From NCBI GenBank assembly GCA_025934635.1, contig JAICWX010000025.1, positions 1 to 46,545 on the forward strand: 46,545 nucleotides of DNA. Direction: 5' to 3'. The translations under genes and the position numbers were made by a program. The stretch is from Streptosporangiaceae bacterium. Its GTDB lineage: Bacteria; Actinomycetota; Actinomycetes; Streptosporangiales; Streptosporangiaceae. This document shows positions 1 through 35,194 of the stretch, piece by piece; positions within the stretch are counted from its first letter, which is position 1, and every line of letters begins with the position of its first letter. The notes under the pieces were generated by a model. That model was not told the DNA's origin. It made no database searches and worked only from the letters and a program-made list of their open reading frames with translations.

Positions 1-213
1 ATGCAGGGGCTGTTCCTGCTGATCACCGTGGCGGTGCTGTTCGCGATCCTGGTCGCGGACATCCTCACCGCACTGCTCGACCCGCGGACGAGGACGGCGC
101 GGTCGCCATGGCCATGCCCGTTTCCGGGGTCCCCACCGAAACCCCCGTCAGCCAGGCCCCCGAGCTCGGGTCCGGTCGCGGGCTCGGCCGGATCGGCCGC
201 GCCGTCCGGCTGA
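1..213 (+). CDS. ABC transporter permease, DppB/OppB type (C-terminal fragment)
   Basis: Only the last 70 codons are inside the window, so the first ATG is an internal Met and the gene begins upstream. A hydrophobic helix (residues 1-25 of the fragment) followed by LLDPRTR is the usual end of DppB-type permeases, which form the membrane channel with the DppC-type partner encoded next. Family members normally stop within a few residues of the DPR motif. Here the frame stays open for about 40 more residues of Pro/Ser/Ala-rich, low-complexity sequence and overlaps the next gene by 106 nt. That tail is probably translated because an earlier stop has been lost, though a sequencing frameshift is possible. 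It is the first visible gene of an operon running to 7214. The permease assignment rests on the short helix plus DPR motif and on the neighbours. Confidence 0.75.
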   Translation: MQGLFLLITVAVLFAILVADILTALLDPRTRTARSPWPCPFPGSPPKPPSARPPSSGPVAGSAGSAAPSG

Positions 214-4272: not shown

Positions 4273-4282
4273 GGAGACCACG

Positions 4283-19401: not shown

Positions 19402-19755
19402 GCCGATCAACCCCCAATGCGGTACCCATATAGGGCGATACGACCGCACGGGTATAGCGCAGCACAAGACAGACGGCTATTCAAGCAGGTGAATGAAACG
19501 TGATAGGAATACGCCGCTTCTGTCGTACCACGACACCTCCCGGAGTCACACCGCCACGCGAAGCGGGTACTTTCTTTCACCAAATTTGCGGATTACACCT
19601 CATGGCCGGGAACCGGAAGTTACCGTCTGGTTTGCGGTGTCCTAAATTTCGTACAGAAGCGCTGCGTAAGGTGACACCTTCAGCACGGTAGGTCAGCTGC
19701 CGGGGGGCGGATTCCACGCACCCCCGTATGCCTTGATTTCAGGCAGGTGCCACCC
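19402..19755. promoter_or_regulatory. 354-bp divergent intergenic region at the left end of the polysaccharide locus
   Basis: This is the longest stretch without a gene in the window and is visibly less GC-rich than its surroundings, with AT-rich patches at 19565-19600 and 19640-19665. It separates the leftward membrane gene from the rightward polysaccharide operon, so it should hold both promoters. On the left it contains a 40-bp block conserved upstream of the paralogous membrane gene. An interrupted inverted repeat GGTGTC...GACACC spans roughly 19635-19678. No coding ORF with good codon use was found. A GGCAGG ribosome site lies 8 nt before the ATG at 19756. Confidence 0.6.
19450..19489 (-). 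promoter_or_regulatory. Conserved upstream block of membrane-protein gene, copy 1
   Basis: GGGTATAGCGCAGCACA (19450-19466) and TTCAAGCAGG (19480-19489) recur with identical spacing at 35195-35234, upstream of the paralogue. Read on the - strand this gives TTGAA and, 22 nt on, TATACC, the latter a plausible -10 hexamer. A promoter or operator kept after duplication is the likely explanation. Confidence 0.6.
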
Positions 19756-21375
19756 ATGGATCCAGGCCCGGCGATCCAGCCGTCGGCAACGCCGTCGGCC
19801 TTGGCCCCGCAGGCCGCGGCGCAGACGGCCGCAGGCACCCACTCCGCGCCCCGGCGGACGGCCAGGCTGCGGGCGCCGGGCAACTGGCCGCTGCTCGCGG
19901 TGCTCGCCGTCCAGGCTGCTCTCTCGCTCCGGCTGACCGGGGCGGACACGGCGTTCCAGGATGAGGCGCTCTACCTGTGGGCCGGCCATCTGGAATGGGC
20001 CTGGCTGCTGCACGGCACCCCGGTGCCGCAGTTCCCCACGTACTTCTCCGGGGCGCCCGTCATCTACCCGCCGCTAGCCGCGCTGGCCGACAGCGCCGGG
20101 GGCCTGGCTGCGGCCCGCATCCTGTCCCTCGTCTTCATGCTCGGCGCCACCGCGCTGCTGTGGGCCACCGCCCGCCTGCTGTCCGGCCGCCGGGCCGCGT
20201 TCTTCGCGGCAGCGCTGTTCGCCGTGCTCGGGCCGACGCTGCACCTGGGCTCGTTCGCCACTTACGACGCCATGTCGCTGTTCGGCGTCGCGCTGGCCTG
20301 CTGGCTCGTCGTCCGGGCCGGGAACCGGGCGGATGCGACCGGCTGGATGATTGCCGCCGGGGCCGCGCTGGCGCTGGCGAACGCGACCTCCTACCCGTCG
20401 GCCCTGTTCGACCCGGTAGTGCTGGCGCTCGCCCTGCTCGCCGCGTTGCCCACGCCGGGCGGCAAGCCGGCCGTGGCGCGCGCGCTGACCCTGCTGACCG
20501 TCCTGGCCTTCCTGATCACGCTGGCCCTGCTGATCGGCGGCAGCCGCTACCTGCACGGGATCGACATCACCACGCTGGAGCGGGCACCAGGCACCGACGC
20601 GCCGATGACGGTCCTCGCGCACTTCGGCTCGTGGACCGGCGTCATCCTGATCGCCGCCGTGGCCGGCGCGATCATCGCCTGGGTCAGCCACGCCGGCCGC
20701 AGCCAGGCGTGGCGGCTGACCCTGCTGGCCGGGGCGGCACTGCTCGTGCCGGCCGAGCAGGCCAGCTTGTACACCACCGCCTCGCTCAATAAGCACGGGG
20801 CCATGGGCGCCTGGTTCGCGGCCGTGGCCGCGGGTTACGCGGTGGACCGGCTTATCGCCGCCGCGGCCGCGGGAACCGCGCGCACCGTCACCTGCGCCGC
20901 CTGCGTGGTCGCGCTCTCCTACCCGGCCACCGTGGGCGCCGCCCAGTCGTGGACGTTCGCCACCAGCTGGCCGTCGTCCTCCGCCTTCGTCGCTATCCTG
21001 CGGCCGCTGGCGGACGGCAGCAGCGGCCGCCTGCTGGTCGAGGACCCGTCGCTGGCCGAGTACTACCTGCCGTCCGGCAGCCAGTGGCAGCGCTGGTCGA
21101 GCACCCGGAACATCGTCCTGCCCTCCGGTGCCCCCACCGGCGGCCCGAGCGTCAAGGCCGGGGTTGTCGGGGACGGCAACGCGGGCACCTACGCGATGTA
21201 CATCGCCCAGGGCTACTTCTCGCTGGTGGCGCTGAACTTCACCGACACCAAGCCGCTCGACCAGAGCATCGCGGCGGACCTGCGGCGCAATCCCCGGTAT
21301 CACATCATCGACGTCATCCCCTACGGCCCCGCCCCAGGTACCTACGTGATCTGGCGATACGAGCCGCCGTCGTGA
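19756..21375 (+). CDS. GT39/PMT-like integral membrane glycosyltransferase, module 1
   Basis: This protein of about 539 residues starts with a Pro/Ala-rich cytoplasmic N-terminus (about 45 residues), then roughly 11-12 hydrophobic helices. The first loop carries DTAFQDEALYLWAGHLEW, matching the acidic DE motif of GT-C lipid-linked-sugar transferases (PMT_2/ArnT type), followed by FSGAPVIYPPLAA. GT-C enzymes take sugar from a polyprenyl phosphate on the outer membrane face. The C-terminal soluble part (ILRPLADGSSGRLLVEDPSLAEYYLP) is typical of actinobacterial members. ATG 19756 is preferred over GTG 19747 because GGCAGG lies 8 nt before it. The next gene begins in a GTGA overlap. It is a paralogue of 23901-25460; the exact sugar is unknown. 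Confidence 0.82.
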   Translation: MDPGPAIQPSATPSALAPQAAAQTAAGTHSAPRRTARLRAPGNWPLLAVLAVQAALSLRLTGADTAFQDEALYLWAGHLEWAWLLHGTPVPQFPTYFSGAPVIYPPLAALADSAGGLAAARILSLVFMLGATALLWATARLLSGRRAAFFAAALFAVLGPTLHLGSFATYDAMSLFGVALACWLVVRAGNRADATGWMIAAGAALALANATSYPSALFDPVVLALALLAALPTPGGKPAVARALTLLTVLAFLITLALLIGGSRYLHGIDITTLERAPGTDAPMTVLAHFGSWTGVILIAAVAGAIIAWVSHAGRSQAWRLTLLAGAALLVPAEQASLYTTASLNKHGAMGAWFAAVAAGYAVDRLIAAAAAGTARTVTCAACVVALSYPATVGAAQSWTFATSWPSSSAFVAILRPLADGSSGRLLVEDPSLAEYYLPSGSQWQRWSSTRNIVLPSGAPTGGPSVKAGVVGDGNAGTYAMYIAQGYFSLVALNFTDTKPLDQSIAADLRRNPRYHIIDVIPYGPAPGTYVIWRYEPPS

Positions 21376-22934
21376 CCGGCCGGGCCGCCAGCACCGGCAC
21401 CATAGCCCGGCCGGCCGCGGCCGGCCGGGGCGAGCTGCTGCCTCCTCGCCCGCCCGACGACGACGAGAAGTACCTCTACGTCCAGCGGAACCTGTCCTAC
21501 CTGACCACCGTGATCCTGATCGGCTCGGTATGCCTCGTCGCCAGCCAGCTCAGGCTGGAGACCGCGGACCTGACGCTCTCGCCGCTCCTGCTGTTCACCG
21601 TGACGTACGTGGTGTACCAGGCCATCAGCCTGCCGGTGAACTTCGCAGGGGCCGGGTTCGACCTAGCCGCGCACCAGGCCCTGGTGACGGCGTGGCACCC
21701 GCCCGCCTACCCGGACGTGGATATCTACCTGCCCGTCTGCGGCGAGCCGGTCGAGTTGCTGCGCAACACCTGGATTGCGGTGTCCGCGCTCATCGAGGCC
21801 TACCAGGGCCGCGCGCGCGGCTACGTCCTCGACGACGGGCCCGACGAGCAGGCCCGCTCGATGGCCGGCTCGTTCGGCTTCCGGTACCTCCGCCGGCCCG
21901 ACCGGCCGGCCGGCAAAAAAGCCGGCAACCTGCGCTACGCCTTCGCCCAGACCTCGGCCGAGTACCTGGTCATCCTGGACGCCGACTTCGCGCCGCGGCC
22001 GGATTTCCTCGCCGAGACCCTGCCGTACCTGGATGATCCGGCGATCGCGATCGTACAGACGCCGCAGTATTTCCGGACCAGCCCGGCACAGACCTGGATC
22101 GAGCGCGCGGCCGGCCCGATCCAGGAGGTGTTCTACCGGACCGTCCAGGTGGCCAGGCAGCGGCTGGACGCGGCCGTGTGCTGCGGGACCTCGGCGGTGT
22201 ACCGGCGGGCCGCGCTCGCGCCGCAGGGCGGCCCGACGCTCATCCCGTACGCCGAGGACGTGCACACCGGCCTGGACGTGCGCCGGGCCGGGTGGTCCAT
22301 GACCTACCTGCCGATCCTGCTGTCCACCGGGATCTGCCCGGACAACCTGGACGCGTTCGTCCGGCAGCAGTACCGGTGGTGCTCAGGGAACGTGGGCATC
22401 GTGTTCTCCCGCCGGCTGTGGTCGATACCGATGCGGCTGCCCGCCCGGCTGGCTTACGTCTCCGGGTTCTTCTATTACGCCTACACCGCGCTGATCACCT
22501 TCTTCGGGCCGCTCATCCCCGTCATCATGCTGGCCTTCCTGCCCGGCCAGGTCAGGCTGAGGAACTTCGTCATCCTGCTCCCGGCCATGCTGACCGGGTT
22601 CGTGCTCTACCCGCTATGGCACCGGTCCCGCTTCGGCCCGGGGATCTGGCCGCTCGGCATCGCCCGCGGCTGGGCACACGTGTTCGCCATCTGGGACGGC
22701 GCCTGGGGCCGGTCGATGAGCTGGCATCCGACCAGGACGCCGGGCAGTTCGCTGCGGCGGTTCCGGATCGGCATCAGGTGGTGGAGCGGCAGCGTGGCCG
22801 TGCTCTGGCTGGCGCTGGCCCTGTGGCGGACCGCGGCCCTCGGTTCCCCGCAGTTCGCGGTCCTGCTGCTCTTCGGCCTGCTCAACCTGGCCATGGTGGC
22901 CCGCGTGATCTTTCCTGGAGGCCAGGCCGCATGA
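21372..22934 (+). CDS. BcsA-like processive GT2 synthase, module 1
   Basis: This 520-residue membrane glycosyltransferase would polymerise a beta-linked glycan and pass it through the membrane. All processive GT2 motifs are visible: DDG (154-156), KKAGNLRYA (182-190), DAD (203-205), YAED as the TED equivalent (293-296), and QQYRW (332-336). Two helices precede the catalytic domain and about five follow it. No PilZ domain and no BcsB partner are seen, so it is cellulose-synthase-like rather than a bacterial Bcs complex. The start is GTG at 21372, overlapping the upstream stop by 4 nt; the frame extends further upstream only as shadow. The donor is likely a UDP- or GDP-hexose; GH26 neighbours hint at a mannan- or glucomannan-like polymer, which is inference. 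Confidence 0.9.
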   Translation: MTGRAASTGTIARPAAAGRGELLPPRPPDDDEKYLYVQRNLSYLTTVILIGSVCLVASQLRLETADLTLSPLLLFTVTYVVYQAISLPVNFAGAGFDLAAHQALVTAWHPPAYPDVDIYLPVCGEPVELLRNTWIAVSALIEAYQGRARGYVLDDGPDEQARSMAGSFGFRYLRRPDRPAGKKAGNLRYAFAQTSAEYLVILDADFAPRPDFLAETLPYLDDPAIAIVQTPQYFRTSPAQTWIERAAGPIQEVFYRTVQVARQRLDAAVCCGTSAVYRRAALAPQGGPTLIPYAEDVHTGLDVRRAGWSMTYLPILLSTGICPDNLDAFVRQQYRWCSGNVGIVFSRRLWSIPMRLPARLAYVSGFFYYAYTALITFFGPLIPVIMLAFLPGQVRLRNFVILLPAMLTGFVLYPLWHRSRFGPGIWPLGIARGWAHVFAIWDGAWGRSMSWHPTRTPGSSLRRFRIGIRWWSGSVAVLWLALALWRTAALGSPQFAVLLLFGLLNLAMVARVIFPGGQAA

Positions 22935-23887
22935 AATCCAGGCTGGTGATGTTCGTGGCCATCGCCCTGGCCGCCGCCGCCCTCGGCGCAGCGGCCGGCC
23001 GCCTGATCGGGCTGGCGCCTGGCAGCCCGCCGACGGTACACGCGACCCTGTCCCCCGAACTGGCCTCCTACCTGGGGGCCTTCGAGCCGGGGGCGCCGCC
23101 CGGCTACGCCCCGGCGGCGGCCTTCGCGAAGGCGGCGGGCCGGCAGCCGAACCTGCTCGGTTACTACAGCGGCTGGGCTCAGCCGTTCGACATGGCGTTC
23201 GCGCGGATGATGCGCACGCACGGAGTCGTTCCGTTCGTGCAGATCGACCCGACCGACGCCTCGGTCGCGGCTATCGCGGCCGGCACCTACGACGAGTACC
23301 TGCGCGCCTACGCCGGCCGCGTCCGTGACTTCGGGCATGCCGTGGTCATCGGGTTCGGGCACGAGATGAACGCTCCGTGGTACTCGTGGGGTTACGGTCG
23401 CACCCCGCCCGGCACCTTCGTGGCTGCGTGGCGGCACATCGTGACGCTGTTCCGCGACGAGGGCGCCCAGAACGTCACCTGGCTGTGGACGCTCCAGGCA
23501 GCCGAGCCCGGCACCGGTCCTATCCAGGACTGGTGGCCGGGCGCCCGGTACGTCACGTGGGTCGGCATCGACGGGTACTACTACCGTCCCAGCGACAGGT
23601 TCGCCACCGTCTTCGGCAAGACCATCGATCAGGTCCGGGCCTTCACCGGCAAGCCGGTGCTGCTGTCGGAGACCGCGGTGGGCCCGCGGGCCGGCCAGTT
23701 CGCCGAGATCCAGGACCTGTTCCACGGCATGGCCACATACAAGACGCTGGGCCTGGTCTGGTTCGACAAGCCCCAGCACGACGGCATCTATCACCAGGAC
23801 TGGCGGATCGAGGACAACGTGCAGGCCGAGATCTCCTTCCGGCTGGGCGTGCGCGACGAGCTCGCTCCGTACCGGGCCGGCAGTTAG
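22931..23887 (+). CDS. Exported GH26-like glycosidase, paralogue 1
   Basis: This 318-residue protein has an N-terminal signal anchor (residues 5-25) and a (beta/alpha)8-type domain. The two catalytic Glu expected for clan GH-A family 26 are present: acid/base Glu145 in GFGHEMNAPWYSWGY and nucleophile Glu247 in KPVLLSETAVG. The repeated family frame is SYLGAFEPG, YYSGW, TFVAAWRHIVTLFR, NVTWLWT, WWPGARYVTWVGIDGYYY and GLVWFD. GH26 enzymes are mostly beta-mannanases, with some beta-1,3-xylanases and mixed-linkage glucanases. It starts in an ATGA overlap with the synthase, so synthase and hydrolase are coupled, which suggests trimming or release of the polymer as it leaves the cell. Paralogues are at 27036, 28069, 29043 (complement) and 33014. 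Confidence 0.85.
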   Translation: MKSRLVMFVAIALAAAALGAAAGRLIGLAPGSPPTVHATLSPELASYLGAFEPGAPPGYAPAAAFAKAAGRQPNLLGYYSGWAQPFDMAFARMMRTHGVVPFVQIDPTDASVAAIAAGTYDEYLRAYAGRVRDFGHAVVIGFGHEMNAPWYSWGYGRTPPGTFVAAWRHIVTLFRDEGAQNVTWLWTLQAAEPGTGPIQDWWPGARYVTWVGIDGYYYRPSDRFATVFGKTIDQVRAFTGKPVLLSETAVGPRAGQFAEIQDLFHGMATYKTLGLVWFDKPQHDGIYHQDWRIEDNVQAEISFRLGVRDELAPYRAGS

Positions 23888-23900
23888 GCGCGGCACGACC

Positions 23901-25460
23901 ATGACGCACCTCTCCGCGGGCGGCATCACCGTCCCGAGACGCCCGCGGCCAGCGCCACCAGGCCAGCGGGCCGGGCCCGCGCCATGGTGGCCGCTGCTCG
24001 TCGTGCTGGCCGTCCAGGCCGTGCTGTCCCTGCGGCTCGTCTGGTCCGCCACGGCGTTCCAGGACGAGGCCCTCTACCTGCGGGCCGGGCACCTGGAATG
24101 GGCGCACTGGCTGCACCACGCGCCAGTTCCCGGGTTCGGCGCCTACTTCTCCGGGGCGCCGGTCCTCTATCCGCCGCTGGCTGCCGCGGCCGACAGCCTG
24201 GGCGGCCTGGCGGGCGCCCGCCTGCTCTCGCTGTGCTTCATGCTCGGCGTGACCGGCCTGCTCTGGGCCAGCACAGTGGGACTGTACGGGCGGCGGGCGG
24301 CGCTGCTGGCATCGGGGCTGTTCGCTACCCTGGCCGGCACCCAGTTCCTCGGCGCGTTCGCCACCTTCGACGCGATGGCGCTGTTCCTGCTGGCCCTGGC
24401 GACATGGCTGGCGGTCCGGGCCGCAACCCGGGCCACGGCCGGGCAGGCTGGCGGGTCCCGGAGCCGGGCGGCGCTGCTCGCCGCCGCGGGGCTTGCGCTG
24501 GCCGCGTCTAACGCCGTCACGTATCCGACTGTGCTGTTCACCCCGGTGGTGCTGGTCGTGGCCGCGCTGGCGGCACGGCGGGAGCAGCCGGGCCGCAGGT
24601 GGCTGACCGCGCTCGCCATCGCGGGCGGCACCTGGCTCATGCTGGCCGGAGCAGCCATCGCGGCGGGCGGCCAGGCCTACTGGCGGGGCCTTACCGCCAG
24701 CACGCTGGCCCGGCCGCCCGCCGGCGCCGCGGTGACGACCGTACTGCGCAGCGCGTACGTCTGGACCAGCCTGATCTTCGTGCTCGCCGTGCTCGGCGCG
24801 GCGATGGCGCTGGCCGGGCGGGCGGACGCCCGGGGCAAGCCGCTGCCCGCCGTGCTGGCCGCGGCGGCGCTGCTCGCCCCGGCCGGACAGGCCGTGCTGC
24901 ACACCACGGTCAGCCTGCATAAGCACGTGGTGCCGGGCGCCTGGTTCGCCGCGATCGCCGCGGGATACGCGATGGCCAGGCTGAGCCGGGTCGATCCCGG
25001 GCACGGCTGGGCCGCCGTGATGGCGCTGCCCATCGCCGCGGCCACGCTGTTCGGCTCGCTGGGTCAGGCGACGACCCTGTTCCGGGTGTGGCCGGACTCG
25101 GCAGCGGCCATCGCCGTCCTGCGCTCGGCGGTCCGCGCCCACCCCGGCCAGTACCTGGCCGAGGACTACGATGTCGAGGCCTACTACCTCAGGGACCAAG
25201 TGCCCTGGCCGCGCTGGTCGGGCACCTGGTACTTCCGCTACGGGCGGGCCGCACCGGGACCGCCCTCGTTTGCCGCCGCGATCAGCCGGCACTACTTCTC
25301 GCTGGTGATCCTGGACTTCGGCGATACCGTGGCCGCCGACGTGCTGGTTACCGCGGACATGCGCCGCGCGGGCGGCTACTACGTGCTGGCGCGGGCCGGG
25401 CCGTTCACGGTCTGGGCGGCACGGGCACCCGGCTCCGGAGGTGAGCGTGGCCGTCACTGA
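23901..25460 (+). CDS. GT39/PMT-like integral membrane glycosyltransferase, module 2
   Basis: This 519-residue protein is a paralogue of 19756-21375 along its whole length: ATAFQDEALYLRAGHLEWAHWLHH matches the DE-motif loop of module 1, then FSGAPVLYPPLAAAADSLGGLAGARLLSLCFMLG. It has about 11-12 predicted helices and a C-terminal soluble segment with AEDYDVEAYYLRDQVPWPRWSGT. The ATG at 23901 is 13 nt after the GH26 stop. Its 3' end overlaps the next synthase gene. The strong similarity in sequence and in gene order shows that modules 1 and 2 arose by tandem duplication. Confidence 0.82.
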   Translation: MTHLSAGGITVPRRPRPAPPGQRAGPAPWWPLLVVLAVQAVLSLRLVWSATAFQDEALYLRAGHLEWAHWLHHAPVPGFGAYFSGAPVLYPPLAAAADSLGGLAGARLLSLCFMLGVTGLLWASTVGLYGRRAALLASGLFATLAGTQFLGAFATFDAMALFLLALATWLAVRAATRATAGQAGGSRSRAALLAAAGLALAASNAVTYPTVLFTPVVLVVAALAARREQPGRRWLTALAIAGGTWLMLAGAAIAAGGQAYWRGLTASTLARPPAGAAVTTVLRSAYVWTSLIFVLAVLGAAMALAGRADARGKPLPAVLAAAALLAPAGQAVLHTTVSLHKHVVPGAWFAAIAAGYAMARLSRVDPGHGWAAVMALPIAAATLFGSLGQATTLFRVWPDSAAAIAVLRSAVRAHPGQYLAEDYDVEAYYLRDQVPWPRWSGTWYFRYGRAAPGPPSFAAAISRHYFSLVILDFGDTVAADVLVTADMRRAGGYYVLARAGPFTVWAARAPGSGGERGRH

Positions 25461-27039
25461 GCCGCGGGTGGCCGCGCCTGCGCCGCCGGCCTACCTGCCC
25501 GCGCCGCCGGACGACCGGGAGAAGTACGCGTACTTCGGCCCGCCGCGCCGCTGGGTCTTCTGCTGGCTGCTGGTAGCCGCGGCGGGCGTCCTGTACGGGT
25601 ACATCAAGGTGGCCGAGCGCGCCTGGCTCATCGCCCCGGTCATGTGGCTGCTGCTCATGGTCATGGTGCCGCCGGTGGTCGTCAACTTCTGGCTGCGCAC
25701 CGGCCGGCCCCGGCTGAGCCTGGCCGCGCACCAGGCCACCGTGGCCCGTTACCGGGCCGAGGCCGCCCGCGGGCCCGCGGCCGAGACGGTGGACGTGTTC
25801 CTGCCCAGCTGCGGTGAGCCGCTGGCCGTGCTGGACAACACGTTCCGGCATGTGAGCGCGCTGACCTGGCACGGGCCGATGACCGTCTACGCGCTTGACG
25901 ACTCGGCCCGAGCGGACGTGCGCGACCTCGCGGACCGGTACGGCTTCCGGTACGTGGTGCGCCCCCGGCCAGGGGAGATGAAGAAGGCAGGCAACCTAGC
26001 CCACGCCCTCGGCATCAGCAGCGGCGATTTCATCGCGGTCATCGACGCCGACTTCGCGGTGCGGCCGGAGTTCCTCTACGAGACCATGCCCTACTTCGAC
26101 GACGCCGCGGCCGGCATCGTCCAGACCGCCCAGTACTACGACGTGACCGGCCGGTCGTTCTCCTATATCCAGCGCTACGCCGGGACCCTGCAGGAGATCT
26201 TCTTCCGGTTCATCCAGCCCGCCCGGGACCGGCACAAGGCCGCCATCTGCGCGGGCACGAACCTGATCTACCGGCGGGCGGCGGTGCGGGCCGCCGGAGG
26301 CTTCGCCCAGGTGCCGATCGGCGAGGACGTCCACTCCGGGGTGAAGCTGTGGTGGGCCGGCTTCGAGACCAGGTACCTGCCGCTGTGCCTGGCCAAGGGC
26401 GTGGCGCCGACGGATTTCCCGTCGCTGGCGAACCAGCAGGCGCGCTGGTGCCGGTCATCGATGATGCTGATGACCGAGCGGCATTTCATCGAGACGCCGT
26501 TCAGCTGGCAGCAGCGGACCGCCTTCTGGGCGGCGTTCCTGTACTACATGTCCTCGGCGGCACTGCTGCTGACCGGGCCGTTCCCGACGCTGACGATGAT
26601 CTGGTGCTACCCCGGCCGCGTCTACCCGCACAACTACCTGCCGATCCTGCCCGCCCTCGCGGCGAGCCTGTTCGCGTTCCCGGTGCTGAGCCGCGGCTGG
26701 CGGCCGACCATCTACCGGGTCTGCGTCATCAATTCCTGCTGCCACCTGTACTCGGTGTGGTCCGCGATCCGCGGGCGGGTGGCCGAGTGGGTACCGACCG
26801 GCGCATCGCCCGGCCGGGGACAGGTTCCGGTGATGGTCAACCGGATCCTGTGCACCTGGATCGTCGCCGTGCAGGCACTCCTCTGGGCGGGCCTGGCCCT
26901 GAGGGTGCACCAGTACGGGTGGCAGCAGTACTGGGCGACAGAGATCCTGGGCGGCATCCAGCTCTACATGGTGGCGCCGCTGATGACACCGGCGAAGGGC
27001 GTGTGGAAACGCGCCCGGCCGGGGGAGGGAACAGCATGA
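25447..27039 (+). CDS. BcsA-like processive GT2 synthase, module 2
   Basis: This synthase of about 530 residues is paralogous to the one at 21372. Motifs: LDDS (DDG position, near residue 151), MKKAGNLAHAL, DAD (near 200), IGEDVHSG as TED, and QQARW as QxxRW. DDG has become DDS, a mild change that keeps the UDP-binding Asp pair. There are two N-terminal helices and about five C-terminal ones; there is no PilZ domain. GTG 25447 is preferred since GGAGG ends 5 nt before it; an in-frame GTG at 25441 would add two residues. It overlaps the end of the GT39-like gene by 14 nt, and its stop overlaps the next ATG. The differing catalytic details leave room for a different polymer from module 1. Confidence 0.88.
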   Translation: MAVTEPRVAAPAPPAYLPAPPDDREKYAYFGPPRRWVFCWLLVAAAGVLYGYIKVAERAWLIAPVMWLLLMVMVPPVVVNFWLRTGRPRLSLAAHQATVARYRAEAARGPAAETVDVFLPSCGEPLAVLDNTFRHVSALTWHGPMTVYALDDSARADVRDLADRYGFRYVVRPRPGEMKKAGNLAHALGISSGDFIAVIDADFAVRPEFLYETMPYFDDAAAGIVQTAQYYDVTGRSFSYIQRYAGTLQEIFFRFIQPARDRHKAAICAGTNLIYRRAAVRAAGGFAQVPIGEDVHSGVKLWWAGFETRYLPLCLAKGVAPTDFPSLANQQARWCRSSMMLMTERHFIETPFSWQQRTAFWAAFLYYMSSAALLLTGPFPTLTMIWCYPGRVYPHNYLPILPALAASLFAFPVLSRGWRPTIYRVCVINSCCHLYSVWSAIRGRVAEWVPTGASPGRGQVPVMVNRILCTWIVAVQALLWAGLALRVHQYGWQQYWATEILGGIQLYMVAPLMTPAKGVWKRARPGEGTA

Positions 27040-28034
27040 CGAGCGAGGGCACCAGACGGCGGGTGAGAGAGGGACAGGGCACCGGCAGGCGCCGGTGGTG
27101 GGTCAGGACCGGCGCGGCGGTGGCGGCCGCGGCCGCGATCGCGGCGGGCATCGTCGTCTACAACCAGTCGTCCTCTGGCCCGACCGGGCCGCTGCCAGTG
27201 CACCTTCCCCCGGCATCCGGTTCCTACCTCGGGGTGTACACGCCGACCGCCCCGCGCACGTACGCCGGGGTGACGGCGTTCAGGAACACCACCGGTACCC
27301 GGCCGGACGTGGTCATGTACTACAGCGGCTGGTATCAGTCGTTCCCGGCCGGCTTCGCCCGGACCGTGGCCAGGGAGGGCGCCGTGCCGCTGGTCCAGAT
27401 GGACCCGGAGAACATCAGCGTCGCGGCCATCGCCTCCGGGCACTACGACGGCTACCTGACCTCGTATGCCGAGGCCGTGCGGCACTACCGCTACCCGGTC
27501 ATCGTGAGCTTCGGTCACGAGATGAACGGCGACTGGTACTCCTGGGGCTACAAGAAAACGTCCCCCGCCACCTTCATCGCCGCCTGGCGGCACATCGTCA
27601 GCCTGTTCCGCGCGCTCGGGGCCGGCAACGTCACCTGGCTGTGGACCGTCAACGTGAAAGATGACAGCCGGCACGGCCAGATCCCGAGCCCGGCCCGGTG
27701 GTGGCCGGGCGGAAAGTACGTGACCTGGGTCGGCATCGACGGCTACTACCTCAAGTCATCGTGGCAATTCGCCCCGCTGTTCGGGCCGACCATCGCCGCG
27801 GTACGCGCGCTCACTTCGGCTCCGATCCTGATCGCCGAGACGGGCGCGGTACCCGCCGCGGGGCAGCCCGCCAAGATCAGCGACCTGTTCCGCGGCATCC
27901 ACTCCTACGGGCTGCTCGGATTCGTGTGGTTCAACTCCACGAACGATGTCGGCCAGGCCTTCGGCCTCAGCAGCCCGGCGGCGATCGCCGCGTTCCGCCA
28001 GGGCGCCCGCACCTACAGCAGGCCCGGCTCGTGA
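27036..28034 (+). CDS. Exported GH26-like glycosidase, paralogue 2
   Basis: This 332-residue protein has an Arg-rich cytoplasmic N-terminus (residues 1-24) and then a membrane anchor (TGAAVAAAAAIAAGIVVY). Catalytic Glu162 lies in SFGHEMNGDWYSWGY and Glu268 in APILIAETGAV. It lacks the HDGxYHQDW segment found near the C-terminus of paralogues 1, 4 and 5, having FNSTNDVGQAFGLSS instead, so it falls in a subgroup with paralogue 3. It starts in an ATGA overlap with the module 2 synthase. A 149-bp stretch is almost identical in paralogue 3. The N-terminus is of signal-anchor type, so the enzyme may stay attached to the membrane. Confidence 0.84.
   Translation: MTSEGTRRRVREGQGTGRRRWWVRTGAAVAAAAAIAAGIVVYNQSSSGPTGPLPVHLPPASGSYLGVYTPTAPRTYAGVTAFRNTTGTRPDVVMYYSGWYQSFPAGFARTVAREGAVPLVQMDPENISVAAIASGHYDGYLTSYAEAVRHYRYPVIVSFGHEMNGDWYSWGYKKTSPATFIAAWRHIVSLFRALGAGNVTWLWTVNVKDDSRHGQIPSPARWWPGGKYVTWVGIDGYYLKSSWQFAPLFGPTIAAVRALTSAPILIAETGAVPAAGQPAKISDLFRGIHSYGLLGFVWFNSTNDVGQAFGLSSPAAIAAFRQGARTYSRPGS
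27505..27653 (+). repeat. 149-bp near-identical block shared by GH26 paralogues 2 and 3 (copy A)
   Basis: The block covers the acid/base Glu motif and the following helix. It matches 28511-28659 with a single difference (position 27624), including 119 identical bases in a row. The flanking parts of the two genes differ at many positions, so this looks like a gene-conversion tract. Confidence 0.92.
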
Positions 28035-28068
28035 CCGCTTTCCCCCGCCGCTGCCGGAGGGCCGAACG

Positions 28069-29046
28069 GTGAGAAGGGCCCGGGCAAGCCGGGCCTGGCT
28101 CGCCGCGGCGGTCACCAGCGCCGTCCTCGCGGGGGCGGGCACGCTGGCCCTGATGCTGCCCGGCCCGGGCGCCCCCGCACCGCCCCGGCCGTCCGCCGGG
28201 CGCTTCGCCCTCCCGGCCACCCCAGCCTCCTATCTGGGCTGGTACCCGGCTGGGGTGCCCCGCTCCTACGCGGGGGTTTCCGCGGTCAGCGCCGCCACCG
28301 GCGTCAAGCCGGGCCTGGTGCCTTACTACAGCGGCTGGTTCGAGCCGTTCCAGCTCTCCTTCGCCGCGGCCGTGGCGAGCGACGGGGCGGTGCCGATCGT
28401 GCAGATGAACCCGGATGGTATCCGGGTCGCCGCCATCGCGTCCGGGCGGTACGACGGCTACCTGCGCCGCTACGCCGGGGCCGTCCGCGGCTATCACCGC
28501 CCGGTCATCATGAGCTTCGGTCACGAGATGAACGGCGACTGGTACTCCTGGGGCTACAAGAAAACGTCCCCCGCCACCTTCATCGCCGCCTGGCGGCACA
28601 TCGTCAGCCTGTTCCGCGCGCTCGGGGCCCGCAACGTCACCTGGCTGTGGACCGTCAACATCATCGACGACCCGCACTACGGCAAGATCCCGAGCCCGGC
28701 CCGGTGGTGGCCGGGCCGCAAGTACGTGACCTGGGTCGGCATCGACGGCTACTACTACCACCCGTCGACGGCGTTCAGCTCGCTCTTCGGGCCGACCATC
28801 GCGGCCGTGCGCCAGATAACGGGCGCCCCCATCCTCATCGCCGAGACCGCTGCCGTGCCCGCCGCGGGCCAGCCCGCGAAGATCGCCGACCTGTTCGCCG
28901 GGGTCCGCCTGTACGGGCTGCTCGGGTTCGTCTGGTTCGACGTCACGCACCCGGAAAACTGGCGGCTGAGCAGTCCGGGGGCCCTGGCGGCCTTTCGCAG
29001 GGGCGCCCGGGAGTACCGCCGGCCCACCTCCGGCAGCGCCTCCTAG
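28069..29046 (+). CDS. Exported GH26-like glycosidase, paralogue 3
   Basis: This 325-residue protein has a short Arg-rich start, a signal anchor (LAAAVTSAVLAGAGTLALML), a Pro-rich linker and a GH26-like domain. Glu153 (SFGHEMNGDWYSWGY) and Glu259 (APILIAETAAV) are the expected catalytic pair. Like paralogue 2 it lacks HDGxYHQDW near the end. The GTG at 28069 is chosen because GGAGG lies 8 nt upstream and it precedes an Arg-rich n-region; frames to 27946 are shadow. It is the last gene of the rightward operon; its TAG shares the tetranucleotide CTAG with the stop of the convergent paralogue 4. No terminator separates the two. Confidence 0.84.
   Translation: MRRARASRAWLAAAVTSAVLAGAGTLALMLPGPGAPAPPRPSAGRFALPATPASYLGWYPAGVPRSYAGVSAVSAATGVKPGLVPYYSGWFEPFQLSFAAAVASDGAVPIVQMNPDGIRVAAIASGRYDGYLRRYAGAVRGYHRPVIMSFGHEMNGDWYSWGYKKTSPATFIAAWRHIVSLFRALGARNVTWLWTVNIIDDPHYGKIPSPARWWPGRKYVTWVGIDGYYYHPSTAFSSLFGPTIAAVRQITGAPILIAETAAVPAAGQPAKIADLFAGVRLYGLLGFVWFDVTHPENWRLSSPGALAAFRRGAREYRRPTSGSAS
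28511..28659 (+). repeat. 149-bp near-identical block shared by GH26 paralogues 2 and 3 (copy B)
   Basis: Partner of 27505-27653 at an offset of 1006 bp, with no gaps and one mismatch by eye. Confidence 0.92.
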
Positions 29047-30008
29047 GGCCGCCCGGGCAGGCCGGCCGCCTCGAGGGTGCCCGGCGCCGGGCCCCGGTAG
29101 GAGCGCAGGGCGCGGCGGAACGCGGCCAGTCCGGCCGGGTTGCCCTCGAGCCGCCAGTCCTGATGGTAGACGCCGTCCGCCTGCGTCTGGTCGAACCAGA
29201 CGAAGCCGAGCAGGTGGTTGGCCCGCACGCCGGTGAAGAGGTCAGGTATCTTCGCCGCCTGCCCGGCCCGCTGGCCGACACCGGTCTCGGACAGCAGGAT
29301 CGGCCGCCTGGTGAAGATCCGCACCTCGGCGATGGTCGGCAGGAATGCGTTGTCGAAGGTGTAGTCACGCTGGAAGTAGTAACCGTCGATGCCGACCCAG
29401 GTCACATAGGAGGCTCCGGGCCACCAGTCCTGGACGGGACCGGTGCGCGAGTCGGTCACGTTGACGGTCCAGAGCCAGATCACGTTGGCCGCACCCTGCT
29501 GGCGGAACAGGGTGACCAGATGCCGCCACGCGGCCACGAACGTCCCGGCGGGAGTGTGCCGGTATCCCCAGGGATCCCAGTCGCCGTTCATCTCGGCTGC
29601 GAAGCCGATGATCACCGGGTGCCCGTACGCCCTGACCTGGCCGGCGTAGGAGCGGATGAAAGCGTCATCGCGGCCCGCGGCAATCGTGGCCAGGCTGGTG
29701 TGACCCGGATCGATCTGCACGAACGGCATCGCCCCGTGCGCGTGTACCTGCCGGGCGAAGTGCGTGTCGAAGGCTTCCTTCCAGCTGCTGTAGTACAGCA
29801 CGATGTTCGGCTGGCGGCCGACGGCGGCGGCGAAGTCCTCGACCGGCTGGTAGGAGGCGGTCTCGCCGGCCTCGGCCACGCCGAGGTAGCCGCCGGCCGC
29901 GAGCTTGACCGGCTTGGGGGCGTAGGCGCCCAGGATCAGGCGGGCGGCCACGGCCAGGACGATCAGCACCACCCCGGCCGCCATGGTTATCACGGCCGCC
30001 CGCTTCAC
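29043..30008 (-). CDS. Exported GH26-like glycosidase, paralogue 4 (altered active site)
   Basis: This 321-residue protein has a signal anchor (residues 4-27) and a GH26-like domain. Glu139 and Glu241 keep the catalytic positions, but the motif around the acid/base reads GFAAEMNGDWDPWGY: the His before the Glu, present in the other four paralogues and usual in GH26, is Ala, and Tyr-Ser is replaced by Asp-Pro. YYSSW replaces YYSGW. It keeps ADGVYHQDWRLE near the C-terminus, grouping it with paralogues 1 and 5. The start is GTG at 30008, in a GTGA overlap with the synthase upstream, so it is coupled to a HasA-like enzyme rather than to a BcsA-like one. It may be changed in specificity or be a binding protein. 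Confidence 0.82.
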   Translation of the reverse strand: MKRAAVITMAAGVVLIVLAVAARLILGAYAPKPVKLAAGGYLGVAEAGETASYQPVEDFAAAVGRQPNIVLYYSSWKEAFDTHFARQVHAHGAMPFVQIDPGHTSLATIAAGRDDAFIRSYAGQVRAYGHPVIIGFAAEMNGDWDPWGYRHTPAGTFVAAWRHLVTLFRQQGAANVIWLWTVNVTDSRTGPVQDWWPGASYVTWVGIDGYYFQRDYTFDNAFLPTIAEVRIFTRRPILLSETGVGQRAGQAAKIPDLFTGVRANHLLGFVWFDQTQADGVYHQDWRLEGNPAGLAAFRRALRSYRGPAPGTLEAAGLPGRP

Positions 30009-31198
30009 GCCGGGCCGGCCTTGATCTTGACCGTCCTCGTCTGCCAGCGGTTATCGTGCAGCCGGGCCAGTGCGTAGTAACGGGTCGGCATGAGCAGCGC
30101 CAGGTTGAGCAGGATCGCGGCCGGGGTGCCGACAAACACTGACAGCATCTTCTGCCGCTTGGACATCCCGGGGCGCCCGGCCAGGTAGAGCACGGACAGC
30201 GCGATCCTGATCACGGCGTAGGCGCCGACGAAGGCCAGCGCGGCCTCGGGATGGGACAGCCGCAGCCGGAAGCCGATCACCCATGAGGCGACGGCCCAGG
30301 TCATCACCAGCGGCGTGATGACCAGCTCGACCAGGCCTACCGTCGGCGAGGCGAGCTGCTTCAGGTTCAGCCGCGCGAAGGCGAACGGCAGCATCCACCA
30401 CCAGGACCTGGCCCAGCGCAGGCGCTGCCGGAACGTCCCGCGCAACGAGGCGGGCATGTCGGTCTCCACCCCCGCCTCGTAGACCCCGACGACCTGGCCG
30501 CGCAGCAGTGCCCGCATGGCCAGCCACCGGTCGTCGCCGGTCCCGCACTCCACCGCGTACTCCTCCAGGTGGTCGTACAGGATCTCCGAGCGGTAGAGCG
30601 CCAGCGCACCGGAGGTGGTCTCCAGGGCGCCGAGCATGGACCGGGAGGCACGCATCATGACGCAGGAACCGCCGATGTCGATGTCGGCCGCCCTGGCCAC
30701 CAGGCTTTCCTGGTAGTTGCGAACGTAGATCCACCCGGTAGCCGCCTGGACCTTCTTGTTGCTCATCGCCCGGAGCAGGTGCTCGAGCGCGTCCGGGTAC
30801 GGCGTGGAGTCGCTGTCCACCGTCATCACGAACTGGAACTCGTCGCGATGGAACCGGCGCAGCGCCGCAACCTGGGCACCCCGCTTGCCCACGTTGGGCT
30901 GCCTGACCCACTCCACCCCGGGGGCATCGAACGGCACGACCGGCTCGGCCGAGCCGTCGTCCATGACGATGATCTTGTCCAGCTTCACCGTCTGGGCCAG
31001 CAGGCTGCGCACGCAAGCGTCGAGCTTTTCCCGCGGTTCGTTATAAGCCGGGATGATCGCTATCGTGCGGCCGCGGGCAATAGGAAAATTGACGAACTTG
31101 CGTCCTCGGACGAACGCGAGAAGGCATATGGCGATAAGCGCAGCACCGAAAATCCAGTAACTTATCAGGACCGCGCTGGCGGCCATGCGCGCGACCAT
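30005..31198 (-). CDS. HasA/NodC-like GT2 polysaccharide synthase
   Basis: This membrane synthase of about 397 residues has one long N-terminal helix region, a GT2 domain with DDG (80-82), DSDS (128-131), GDDRW (221-225) and QRLRW (258-262), then three or four helices. GDDR together with QxxRW is the pattern of hyaluronan, chitin and NodC synthases. It lies downstream of a nucleotide-sugar dehydrogenase, as HasA does with HasB, so a uronate-containing polymer is likely. The start is unsure: ATG 31198 (or 31186) lacks a good ribosome site, yet the same frame is open back to an ATG at 31528 that forms a TGATG junction with the dehydrogenase. Codon use upstream of about 31200 is poor in this frame and good in the 52-residue ORF, so I favour the short form. 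Confidence 0.82.
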   Translation of the reverse strand: MVARMAASAVLISYWIFGAALIAICLLAFVRGRKFVNFPIARGRTIAIIPAYNEPREKLDACVRSLLAQTVKLDKIIVMDDGSAEPVVPFDAPGVEWVRQPNVGKRGAQVAALRRFHRDEFQFVMTVDSDSTPYPDALEHLLRAMSNKKVQAATGWIYVRNYQESLVARAADIDIGGSCVMMRASRSMLGALETTSGALALYRSEILYDHLEEYAVECGTGDDRWLAMRALLRGQVVGVYEAGVETDMPASLRGTFRQRLRWARSWWWMLPFAFARLNLKQLASPTVGLVELVITPLVMTWAVASWVIGFRLRLSHPEAALAFVGAYAVIRIALSVLYLAGRPGMSKRQKMLSVFVGTPAAILLNLALLMPTRYYALARLHDNRWQTRTVKIKAGPA

Positions 31199-31251
31199 GT
31201 AAGCGGTCGCGCCCAGGGTCGGTACGGCAATAGCAATGGTGCAGCGGTGGA

Positions 31252-31410
31252 CTACCTCCGAGCCTTTATGGTTGCTAGCCGGTACAGCGTGAGCCCCCCG
31301 AGGACGACGGCGAAACCGGCGCCGATGACCCACGTCATCATGTGCATGCCCGCGGTCAGCAGGGCGCCCGTCGCGATCGTCCCCGACGCCACGCTCATCT
31401 TTCCGTACAT
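31252..31410 (-). CDS. Small membrane peptide, 52 residues
   Basis: This short ORF encodes MYGKMSVASGTIATG..., a mostly hydrophobic peptide with a strong membrane segment (WVIGAGFAVVLGGLTLY) and a basic end (KARR). The ATG at 31410 follows AGGAG by 7 nt. About nine in ten third codon positions are G or C, against many A/T in the overlapping frame of the synthase, which supports real translation. It lies between the dehydrogenase and the HasA-like synthase, on the same strand. A small subunit of the synthase or export complex is a reasonable guess. I do not recognise a family. Confidence 0.55.
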   Translation of the reverse strand: MYGKMSVASGTIATGALLTAGMHMMTWVIGAGFAVVLGGLTLYRLATIKARR

Positions 31411-31527
31411 CCGGATCTCCTCTCTGGGTGGTTAGCGGACTGTCCGCTCCGGCCTGGGATGCGTGCAGGCTGAGCAGCACGGCCAGGCTGGTGTCCTGGG
31501 ACGAGGGCGGCGCCTCGATGAAATCCA

Positions 31528-32829
31528 TCACAGGCGCTCCCCCGCCGCGGTGAAACCGCGGGTGTCGAGCAGCAGCCGGGCGCGGCGCCCGATCTCGGCC
31601 GGGTCGAAGGCGCCGTGCGCCTGCAGCAGGATGACCAGGTCCGCCGCCGCCACCGCGTCGGCCACCCGGCCGCAGGCCTCGACGCGCCTCCCGTCGACGA
31701 ACCACTCGGCCACGTAAGGGTCGCAGTAGGCCACCTGGGCTCCGGCCCGCCAGAGCTGGCGGGCCACGGCGGCGGCCGGCGTCTCGCGCAAGTCAGCGCA
31801 GTCCTTCTTGTAGGTGACGCCGAGCAGCAGCACCCTCGAGCCGTTCACCGGTTTGAAGTTCCGGTTCAGCAGCTCGGTGGCGCGGGATACGACGTACCCC
31901 GGCATCCGGCCGTTGATCTCCTGGGCCAGCTCGACGAACCGGAACGGGTAGCCGAGCCTCCGCACCTGGTAGGAGAGGTAGTTGGGGTCGATCGGGATGC
32001 AGTGACCGCCGACACCGGGACCGGGGAAGAAGGGCTGGAAGCCGAACGGCTTGGTGGCCGCGCACCTGATCGCGTCCCACAAGTCCACGCCGAGCTCGCG
32101 GCAGAAGATCGCCATCTCGTTGATCAGCGCGATGTTCACGTGCCGGTAGGTGTTCTCCAGCAGCTTGGCCATCTCCGCCTCACGCGCCGAGGCGGCCCGG
32201 ACCACGTGATCGCAGATCTTGCCGTAGAAGGCCGCGGCCGCCTCGGTGCACGACGGCGTGAGCCCGCCCACCACCTTGGGCGTGTTCCTGATGCCGTAGG
32301 CCTGGTTGCCCGGGTCGATCCGCTCCGGGGAGAAGGCCAGCGCGAAATCCAGGCCCGCGGTCAGGCCCGACTCCTTCTCCAGCAGCGGGCGCACTACTTC
32401 CTCGGTGGTTCCCGGGTAGGTGGTCGATTCCAGCACGACCAGCGCGCCGGGCCGCAGCCGCCGGGCCGCCATCACGGCCGCCGACCTGACCGCGCCCAGG
32501 TCGGGGCCGTTGTCGGCGGTGAGCGGGGTGGGCACGCAGATCACGATCGTCGCGGGACGGCCGACGGCGTCTTCGGCGTCCGTCGCCAGGAAGCGGCCCG
32601 CGAGCATGGCATGGACATCGTTACCCGATACGTCCCCGATGTGCGACCGGCCGGCGTTCAGGCCGCTGACCACGGCGTGGTCCGGGTCGTAGCCGGCTAC
32701 GGTCAGGCCGGCCCTGGCCGCTTCGGCGGCGAGCGGAAGCCCGACGTAGCCGAGCCCGATGACCAGCAGATCTGGATCGCGGAGCGATGAAGAGCCTGGT
32801 GCAGGAGCAGGCTTGCCGTAACCGATCAA
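31528..32829 (-). CDS. Nucleotide-sugar 6-dehydrogenase (UDP-Glc/UDP-HexNAc dehydrogenase family)
   Basis: This 433-residue NAD+-dependent enzyme oxidises the C6 hydroxyl of a nucleotide sugar twice to give a uronate donor. The Rossmann loop is GLGYVG (25-30), CVPTPL (98-103) and STTYPGTTEE (135-144) follow, and the catalytic Cys277 lies in GPGVGGHCIPIDP with Lys260 in ATKPFGF. GGHCIP is the WbpA/TviB form (UDP-GlcNAc or UDP-GalNAc dehydrogenase), whereas the classic UDP-glucose enzyme has GGSCFPKD, so a hexosaminuronate donor is as likely as UDP-glucuronate. The start is TTG at 32829, no ATG being present until residue 74. The stop overlaps a downstream ATG in TGATG. It supplies the polysaccharide locus. 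Confidence 0.9.
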   Translation of the reverse strand: MIGYGKPAPAPGSSSLRDPDLLVIGLGYVGLPLAAEAARAGLTVAGYDPDHAVVSGLNAGRSHIGDVSGNDVHAMLAGRFLATDAEDAVGRPATIVICVPTPLTADNGPDLGAVRSAAVMAARRLRPGALVVLESTTYPGTTEEVVRPLLEKESGLTAGLDFALAFSPERIDPGNQAYGIRNTPKVVGGLTPSCTEAAAAFYGKICDHVVRAASAREAEMAKLLENTYRHVNIALINEMAIFCRELGVDLWDAIRCAATKPFGFQPFFPGPGVGGHCIPIDPNYLSYQVRRLGYPFRFVELAQEINGRMPGYVVSRATELLNRNFKPVNGSRVLLLGVTYKKDCADLRETPAAAVARQLWRAGAQVAYCDPYVAEWFVDGRRVEACGRVADAVAAADLVILLQAHGAFDPAEIGRRARLLLDTRGFTAAGERL

Positions 32830-33013
32830 GATCCCCCCAGATCAGTAGGCGTGCGGATTACCGGTGCGCCGACTGCCTGACGAGGGCCTACGTTATCGCA
32901 CAAGAAGCTACATCTAGGGGGAAATCGGTTGATGATGAGGTGTTTCAGGCAGACGTAAGATTTCCGCTGCTTTTTCGTGATTAAGGATGTTTGGTTTCTG
33001 TGGCCAGAGCAAC
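32830..33013. promoter_or_regulatory. Divergent intergenic region, dehydrogenase / GH26 paralogue 5
   Basis: These 184 bp separate two divergent transcripts and are clearly less GC-rich than the rest, with AGAAGCTACATCTAGGGGGA and TTTTTCGTGATTAAGGATG among the AT-rich parts. Both promoters should lie here. A G-run GGGGGG is 3 nt before the TTG start of the dehydrogenase. No clear palindrome was recognised. Confidence 0.5.
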
Positions 33014-33955
33014 ATGAAGTCTCGTTTGATGCTGTTGATAGCTGCTGTGATTGTCGTGGCGGGCGTGGTGTTTGCGGTCGGCCACCTGGTCTCGCCCGCC
33101 ACCCCGGCAGGCACCGAGTTCGCGGCCCTCCCCGTCGCTCCCGCCTCCTACCTGGGGATTTACGAGAAGGGACCGCCGTCCAGCTATCAGCCGGTCGCGG
33201 CGTTCACGCGGAGAGTCCGGCCGCCGAACCTGGTCGGGTACTACGGCGGGTGGGGCGAGCCGTTCGAATCGTCGTTCGCGACTATGGTGCGCGACCACAG
33301 CGCGGTCACGCTGCTGCAATGGGATCCGACGGCCGCCTCGGTCGCGCGGATCGCAGCCGGAGGTTATGACAGCTATCTGCGCTCGTTTGCGGACAGCGTC
33401 CGCCGGTTCGGCAGCCCCGTCGTCATCGGCTTCGGCCACGAGATGAACGCCTACTGGTATTCATGGGGCTATCAGCACACCCCCGCCGCGACGTTCGTGG
33501 CGGCGTGGCGGCATATCGTCACCGTGTTCCGGATCCGGAACGCTCGCAACGTCACCTGGCTGTGGACCGTCCAGGCGGACGAACCCGGCACTGCCCCGGT
33601 CGCCTCCTGGTGGCCAGGGCAGCACTACGTCACCTGGGTCGGTATCGACGGCTACTACTACCGTCCGTCCGAGACGTTCTTCAGTATTTTCGGCCAGACC
33701 ATCGCCCAGGTCCGGATGCTCACCGGCCTTCCCGTCCTGCTCTCCGAGACTGCGGTTGGCCCGCAGGCCGGGCAAACGGCGAAGATCCCCGGCCTGTTCG
33801 CCGGGATGCGCCAGTACGGCACGCTCGGGCTGGTCTGGTTCGACATCGCCCAGCACGACGGGCTCTACCATCAGGACTGGCACGTCGAGGACGACGCTGC
33901 CGCCGCCGCGGCTTTCCGGCGGGCCGCCTCCGGTCTGTCCCTGGCCCGCTTCTGA
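33014..33955 (+). CDS. Exported GH26-like glycosidase, paralogue 5
   Basis: This 313-residue protein opens with MKSRL, as paralogue 1 does, then a signal anchor (LLIAAVIVVAGVVFAV). Catalytic Glu143 (GFGHEMNAYWYSWGY) and Glu245 (LPVLLSETAVG) are in place, and HDGLYHQDWHVEDD is kept, which places it closest to paralogue 1. YYGGW replaces YYSGW, and LLQWDP replaces FVQIDP. The ATG at 33014 is chosen by analogy with paralogue 1; a frame from 32987 would add nine non-conserved residues. Third codon positions near the start are less GC-rich than usual here. It is monocistronic and directly precedes the SRPBCC remnant that marks the right flank of the island. Confidence 0.84.
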   Translation: MKSRLMLLIAAVIVVAGVVFAVGHLVSPATPAGTEFAALPVAPASYLGIYEKGPPSSYQPVAAFTRRVRPPNLVGYYGGWGEPFESSFATMVRDHSAVTLLQWDPTAASVARIAAGGYDSYLRSFADSVRRFGSPVVIGFGHEMNAYWYSWGYQHTPAATFVAAWRHIVTVFRIRNARNVTWLWTVQADEPGTAPVASWWPGQHYVTWVGIDGYYYRPSETFFSIFGQTIAQVRMLTGLPVLLSETAVGPQAGQTAKIPGLFAGMRQYGTLGLVWFDIAQHDGLYHQDWHVEDDAAAAAAFRRAASGLSLARF

Positions 33956-33967
33956 CGCAGGTGGCCG

Positions 33968-34057
33968 GCCCGGACGGCGGGCGAGCTCATTGACGCCCTG
34001 ACCATCGCAGGGAGGGCGGCGGGGCTGAAGGAACAGCTGGCGGATCCGTCACGCTGA
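33968..34057 (+). pseudogene. Remnant of the SRPBCC gene 3' end
   Basis: Thirty codons including TGA read ARTAGELIDALTIAGRAAGL..., matching the last 30 codons of the SRPBCC gene at 18055-18144 (ARTGGEFIDALTIAGMAAGL...) at about two thirds of residues and more of the bases. The rest of the gene is absent: GH26 paralogue 5 ends 12 nt upstream. As at the left flank, the fragment is convergent with a membrane-protein gene, so it is the leftover edge of a duplicated segment. Confidence 0.8.
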
Positions 34058-35144: not shown

Positions 35145-35194
35145 GCCGGTCAAAACCCCCTAGGCCCCGGGCATAGAGGCCGGCGCGGACCGCA

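Follow-up and report, generated by a model that had tools for sequence, protein, structure and literature searches.

Joining a polysaccharide synthase with a hydrolase is an established plan, represented by bcsA-bcsB-bcsZ and, in Streptomyces, by cslA-glxA-cslZ, where a BcsA-like synthase has a translationally coupled membrane partner and a glucanase gene downstream (PMC11022532, available part of the text). Two further described systems come near: RiGT2 of Romboutsia ilealis, a mixed-linkage glucan synthase, is a Gram-positive member of glycosyltransferase family 2 (GT2) whose gene is not clustered with bcsB (available part of PMC10374906; compared by description), and wps-1 of Actinoplanes missouriensis is an actinomycete polysaccharide cluster with a GH26 gene (WpsE), required for normal sporangium formation (available part of PMC13390465). 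We describe here a surface-polysaccharide island at positions 19747-33955 of a 46,545-nucleotide contig of a Streptosporangiaceae bacterium (JAICWX010000025.1; the whole contig is called the window). It encodes two BcsA-like GT2 synthases (GT2a and GT2b) and one HAS/NodC-like GT2 synthase (GT2h), with two GT-C transferases, one UDP-sugar dehydrogenase and five GH26 proteins, and its pairing of synthase with GH26 is conserved beyond the window.

On the plus strand the genes run GT39-like a, GT2a, GH26a, GT39-like b, GT2b, GH26b, GH26c; a minus-strand set holds the dehydrogenase, GT2h and GH26d, and GH26e follows on the plus strand (Table 1). All three synthase genes overlap their own GH26 gene by 4 nt, the genes of GT39-like a and GT2a likewise share 4 nt, and GH26c and GH26e have no synthase immediately upstream. 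Both this gene set and the ATGA or GTGA overlaps had been claimed in an earlier note on this DNA, and Pfam matches and gene coordinates (from a simple codon-score script) bear them out. A related soil metagenome-assembled genome (MAG), titled Nocardiopsis sp., has a GH26d region 91% identical to that of the window. Contig L007 of this MAG carries GT39, GT2a, GH26a, GT39, GT2b and GH26b, and contig L001 carries GH26e, dehydrogenase, GT2h, GH26d and GH26c; the two contigs belong to one genome, G002, which has five GH26 matches overall, and with these equivalents in hand an assembly artefact was rejected.

Like BcsA, GT2a and GT2b have a processive GT2 core of the BcsA fold, with the D,D,D and QxxRW motifs, and a hydrolase gene in the cluster; they score 156.8 and 131 bits, far under the NCBIfam BcsA/CelA cut-off of 699.1. 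The differences are that neither has a PilZ match at E 0.001, that BcsB was found in none of nine GH26-carrying genomes searched, that the hydrolase belongs to GH26 or is GH16-like, its gene often overlapping that of the synthase, and that GT-C transferases are added. As the earlier note had it, a Pfam scan of 40 window proteins reported no BcsB, PilZ, Wza/Wzc, Wzx or Wzy family; nor did the scanned window proteins include a galactose-oxidase-like (PF09118) gene product. PF09118 genes, which we infer to be glxA, occur at other loci in all five genomes searched, in four of them about 2 kb from a separate, weaker GT2 match, so CslA-GlxA is a separate locus and identity with it was rejected. An odd point is that G002 has a PF09118 gene yet no third BcsA-like GT2 at E 1e-10. 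The other comparisons differ as well: the terms glycoside hydrolase and GT39 are absent from the main text of PMC10374906, and wps-1 is a predicted Wzx/Wzy cluster rather than a processive-synthase pair (PMC13390465, available part). CcsZ, BgsA and matAB were compared with the island by description. The earlier statement that the island fits none of the standard pathways thus stands for gene content, which is neither Bcs, CslA-GlxA nor Wzx/Wzy, but is too strong, since the island follows the synthase-plus-hydrolase plan in a variant form (PMC11022532, available part). As that note also supposed, we recognised no description of a GT2-GH26-GT39 operon in the literature searched by title and abstract start; most subscription journals lay outside the search, which makes this weak evidence of absence.

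Scanning genomes with a GH26 alignment, we obtained at least 488 confirmed matches and fetched 78 loci from the best 80, 77 of them titled as actinobacterial and one as Verrucomicrobiota. Among these loci and the window, 57 of 115 GH26 genes lie directly behind a BcsA-like GT2 gene on the same strand, with an exact 4-nt overlap in 31 of the 57; the gene after GH26 is GT39-like in 36 cases and of a second GT-C family in 10. The loci were picked by GH26 match and their counts are therefore not prevalence, so a separate sample was added: 296 genomes from the class to which G001 (source of Streptomyces locus L031) belongs. The models used to search it derive from the GH26-chosen loci, and seven (GH26) or five (GT2) first-look candidates were scored per genome, which may undercount. 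GH26 (E <=1e-15) was found in 70 of the 296 genomes, at 98 places. Anchoring on the synthase, we took as strong BcsA-like places the 26 GT2 matches with E <1e-140; 18 of these have a GH26 within 8 kb (same strand in 17), and at two others GH26 matches weakly, in one case on the opposite strand. Anchoring on GH26, we examined the best 60 of the 98 places and found a GT2 within 6 kb at 34, on the GH26 strand in 30 cases; the share falls with the GH26 score, from 10/10 through 18/27 and 3/8 to 3/15. The top ten places come from seven genomes, eight having the GT2 on the same strand; GT-C proteins of the locus families are near 8, 7, 1 and 1 places of the four score classes. Some places share a genome or overlap (L118/L122, L141/L145, L154/L155 and L166/L167), and some stretches end at contig ends. 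None of 40 control regions had a GT2 or GT-C nearby, and chance neighbourhood was rejected on that count. The link that the earlier note drew between synthase and GH26 thus holds in other genomes, from either anchor.

The same counts bear on whether the GH26s are scavengers of plant or fungal glucans that lie near glycosyltransferases by happenstance. Twelve of the 15 GH26 places in the weakest class examined lack a synthase, as scavengers would, and the window has an operon of ABC-transporter, GH4 and GH9 genes at 108-7214; but happenstance would hardly yield the 31 exact overlaps or a GT2 near every top-scoring place against none of the controls, and we hold this explanation to be very improbable.

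The five window GH26s score 32.8 to 40.5 bits with PF02156 (cut-off 20.2). Their closest solved relative is the lichenase CtLic26A (Endoglucanase H), with a profile E of 5.8e-40 against 3.8e-10 for the next enzyme, a gap of about 30 orders of magnitude. CtLic26A comes from a degrading system. Both of its catalytic Glu, the acid/base and the nucleophile, align with the window proteins; the two are invariant across the five, and each is present in 168 of 170 aligned GH26s. GH26d differs from CtLic26A in having Ala instead of the usual His before the acid/base; it also has Asp where a Tyr is usual nearby. Its close database homologues show the Ala as well. Two side cases are a Streptomyces BcsA-paired GH26 (L031, 3880-4863) with Asp for this His, near a second pair that keeps it, and a BcsA-paired GH26 (L126, about 5848-6811) that aligns without the acid/base Glu and is possibly misaligned or a dead enzyme.

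A clue to the polymer comes from the six strong BcsA-like places that lack a GH26 match altogether, at five of which a GH16-like glucanase stands at the synthase (Table 1; neighbours were scanned in part at L219 and L220). The C-terminus of the L222 protein matches an endo-1,3-beta-glucanase at 2.3e-94. GH16 and lichenase-type GH26 are distinct families with overlapping action on beta-1,3 or mixed 1,3-1,4 glucans. That they share the slot at the synthase speaks for a beta-glucan that contains 1,3 linkages, so the BcsA-like enzymes, judged from sequence, probably make such a glucan, either pure 1,3 or mixed 1,3/1,4. A beta-mannan or glucomannan, trimmed by GH26s that are ordinary mannanases, would agree with the source-given name mannan endo-1,4-beta-mannosidase borne by several listed homologues; we consider it unlikely in view of the distance by which the lichenase is the closest solved relative, and of the GH16-like proteins that stand in for GH26 at sister synthases, a family that includes 1,3- and 1,3-1,4-glucanases and is not known to include mannanases. 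The apparent acyltransferase-SGNH/GH16-like fusion in L220-L222 possibly combines acylation and trimming in one chain.

On balance, we think it somewhat probable that the island consists of synthase-dependent surface-polysaccharide modules, each a processive GT2 with a coupled, tethered GH26 glucanase, the BcsA-like modules making beta-glucan decorated by GT-C enzymes and the HAS-like module a separate polymer. (i) The GT2, as its fold and the gene content suggest, would polymerise a UDP-sugar and thread the chain out by a membrane channel of its own, with neither BcsB nor PilZ. (ii) The GH26, presumably a membrane-tethered endo-glucanase, would trim, release or edit the emerging chain, a role suggested by gene overlap, conservation and retained catalytic residues. 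(iii) The product of the two BcsA-like modules would be the 1,3-linked beta-glucan indicated by the lichenase-like GH26 and its GH16-like replacement. (iv) The two GT39-like enzymes may decorate the chain on the outer side of the membrane, taking the side sugars from a polyprenyl-phosphate donor; donor-synthase-like or GtrA-like genes stand alongside elsewhere. (v) The HAS-like module and the dehydrogenase would make a second, acidic polymer, with a GH26 of altered active site.

An N-terminal hydrophobic segment is present in 55 of 62 BcsA-paired GH26s, and a lipobox-like motif, by a rough motif test, in 31 of the 62, which suggests lipid rather than helix anchoring. The segment, the position of GH26 directly behind the synthase with genes that often overlap, and the lack of BcsB in the nine genomes would also suit a GH26 that is mainly a membrane-tethered partner subunit replacing BcsB or GlxA, with catalysis secondary. 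Against this, the catalytic Glu are almost never lost; moreover 67 of 88 unpaired GH26s have the segment too, the lipobox-like motif speaks for another anchor, and GH16 or acyltransferases take the slot in sister loci, all of which makes this explanation quite improbable.

Several observations count against the tethered-glucanase modules favoured here. No GT2 of these kinds lies within 6 kb at 26 of the best 60 GH26 places, and 84 of 183 GH26 genes lack one within 1 kb upstream; the hydrophobic segment, shared with unpaired GH26s as just said, is not special to the paired ones. The GH16-like C-termini of L220 and L221 are sub-cut-off Pfam matches. Neither a donor-lipid synthase nor GtrA was seen in the window, and the small GT2 of L031, described below, scores under all NCBIfam cut-offs. 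The dehydrogenase is nearest to UDP-HexNAc dehydrogenases yet falls under their cut-offs, and window-type HAS-like synthases are rare (four of 80 genomes of G002's family at E <=1e-40). No biochemistry on any member was found in the literature searched, and GH26 enzymes act mainly as beta-mannanases (PMC13390465, available part).

A GT2 gene lies within 1 kb upstream of 99 of the 183 GH26 genes (79 and 20 by best model); 98 pairs have a long enough GT2, and 92 remain after duplicate removal (65 BcsA-like, 18 HAS/NodC-like and nine others). Along the GH26 tree there are 11 changes of synthase type, where 1000 shufflings give 25.2 on average and never fewer than 19. Distances on the GH26 and GT2 trees correlate in a Mantel test (r 0.38 for all 92 pairs, 0.69 for the 65 BcsA and 0.58 for the 18 HAS pairs, each p 0.0005), which again tempers the favoured reading, as the test keeps shared species history and shared descent alone may produce the correlation. 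The residue before the acid/base is His in 55 of 57 BcsA-paired GH26s and in all 11 whose synthase is of GT2 family 19 or 23 (NodC-like), Pro in all three with a partner from a PgaC-like family, and Ala in three window-type HAS pairs (window, L001 and L057, the first two being close orthologues). The labels PgaC-like, CelA-like and NodC-like rest on below-cut-off NCBIfam matches of two, one and three tested members, respectively, in addition to the window. Since His is kept with the NodC-like families, most HAS/NodC-like partners bring no residue change. The earlier proposal that the hydrolase is matched to the polymer is therefore upheld in part, as far as the synthase goes: synthase types cluster on the GH26 tree and the residue differs for two of them, but most HAS/NodC-like partners leave it unchanged and descent could explain the correlation. 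GH26d of the window clusters, together with those of L001, L057 and L003, with BcsA-paired GH26s from related loci and not with Streptacidiphilus HAS-paired ones (support of the joining branch 68), which suggests more than one recruitment.

The HAS/NodC-like module recalls the has operon, in which a HAS-like GT2 likewise stands beside a UDP-sugar dehydrogenase; it differs by the attached GH26 and by a dehydrogenase that scores closer to UDP-HexNAc types, its closest PDB chain being named UDP-ManNAcA dehydrogenase. A six-sequence profile of GT2h has hyaluronan synthase 1 as its best PDB match (E 5.5e-31), and GT2h scores 116.5 bits where the NCBIfam NodC cut-off is 550. Most likely this synthase and the dehydrogenase make a different, uronic-acid-containing polymer.

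Seventeen of the 78 loci, every one titled Streptomyces, have the operon between the truA family and the ribosomal L13-S9 pair, with the L17 family before truA in 15 of the 17 within the fetched stretch; in Kitasatospora (L041) it lies beside these genes, not between them. Family names here come from Pfam matches of the L031 members (truA, ribosomal genes, small GT2). The usual order is GT2, GH26, GT39-like and a second PMT_2 GT-C, followed by a small GT2 (PF00535 in L031, the family being found in 20 loci), at times with a UDP-sugar dehydrogenase before it. The GT39-like proteins gave nothing informative as a profile against PDB sequences or against NCBIfam; GT-C membership in the GT39/PMT group is indicated by the GT-C fold, seen in GT39-like b, and an acidic pair in the first external loop. 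At L216 the gene behind a GT-C encodes a GT2 joined to a GtrA domain, and a weak GH26 match lies on the opposite strand; this fusion and the small GT2 are compatible with GT-Cs that use lipid-linked sugars, without proving it.

Tentatively, and with rather less confidence than for the island itself, we propose that actinomycetes hold a widespread class of polysaccharide exporters in which GH26 joined repeatedly to BcsA-like, shorter CelA-like, HAS/NodC-like and PgaC-like synthases, its active site changing with some. The BcsA-like branch, in many Streptomyces between truA and L13-S9, would make a side-chain-bearing beta-1,3 or mixed-linkage glucan, and a GH16 glucanase or an acyltransferase-GH16 fusion could take its hydrolase slot as well. 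New here are the prevalence with controls, the GH26/GH16 exchange that points to beta-glucan, and the recurrence with several kinds of synthase. If the proposal is true, many Streptomyces and relatives, cultured strains among them, have a further glucan-export system besides CslA-GlxA, and the accompanying glucanase is a polymer clue, readable without biochemistry, for many processive GT2 genes that lack a known product. With a single hydrolase family recruited repeatedly by synthases that are unlike one another, the tethered glucanase would then seem to be a functional component of export across the thick Gram-positive wall and not an accessory.

Table 1. Genes of the island, by window position, and genes found at BcsA-like synthases of sister loci without GH26
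Feature	Position or locus	Strand	Remarks
GT39-like (PMT_2) GT-C membrane glycosyltransferase a	19747..21375 (start 19747 or 19756)	+	PF13231 38.2 bits (cut-off 26.1); 4-nt GTGA overlap into next gene
GT2a, BcsA-like processive GT2 synthase	21372..22934	+	No PilZ match
GH26a, paired with GT2a	22931..23887	+	PF02156 above cut-off; ATGA overlap with GT2a; both catalytic Glu; N-terminal hydrophobic segment
GT39-like GT-C membrane glycosyltransferase b	23901..25460	+	
GT2b, BcsA-like processive GT2 synthase	25441..27039	+	Pfam GT2 families; PDB BcsA E 1.3e-27; no PilZ match
GH26b, paired with GT2b	27036..28034	+	PF02156 above cut-off; ATGA overlap with GT2b; catalytic Glu retained
GH26c	27946..29046 (start 27946 or 28069, codon scoring)	+	PF02156 above cut-off
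GH26d, paired with GT2h	29043..30008	-	PF02156 above cut-off; GTGA overlap with GT2h; residue survey; closest PDB CtLic26A, E 1.4e-27
GT2h, HAS/NodC-like processive GT2 synthase	30005..31237 (start 31198 or 31237)	-	PF00535/PF13641 on longer open reading frame 30005-31705
UDP-sugar 6-dehydrogenase (UDP-HexNAc or UDP-glucose type)	31528..32829 (start 32829 or 32673)	-	PF03721/PF00984/PF03720; TIGR03026 above cut-off
GH26e, divergent from dehydrogenase	32987..33955	+	PF02156 above cut-off
GH16 gene	L217		Adjoins BcsA-like synthase
AT3-SGNH acyltransferase protein with GH16-like C-terminus	L220, L221, L222		Beside BcsA-like synthase
AT3-SGNH gene, then GH16 gene	L223		
AT3-SGNH gene	L219		No glucanase among four neighbours scanned

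Around the island, two paralogues, both on the minus strand (18139-19467 and 33987-35153), flank it with one on each side; they are 47% identical over 349 columns and have no Pfam or NCBIfam match, and a stretch related to them adjoins a GH26 in L004. The operon at 108-7214, on the plus strand, also includes a BadF-family ATPase gene and resembles an oligosaccharide uptake operon. On the minus strand at 36853-42843 lies a molybdopterin dehydrogenase (CO-dehydrogenase-like) gene set beside genes for a GntR-type regulator and an alpha/beta hydrolase.

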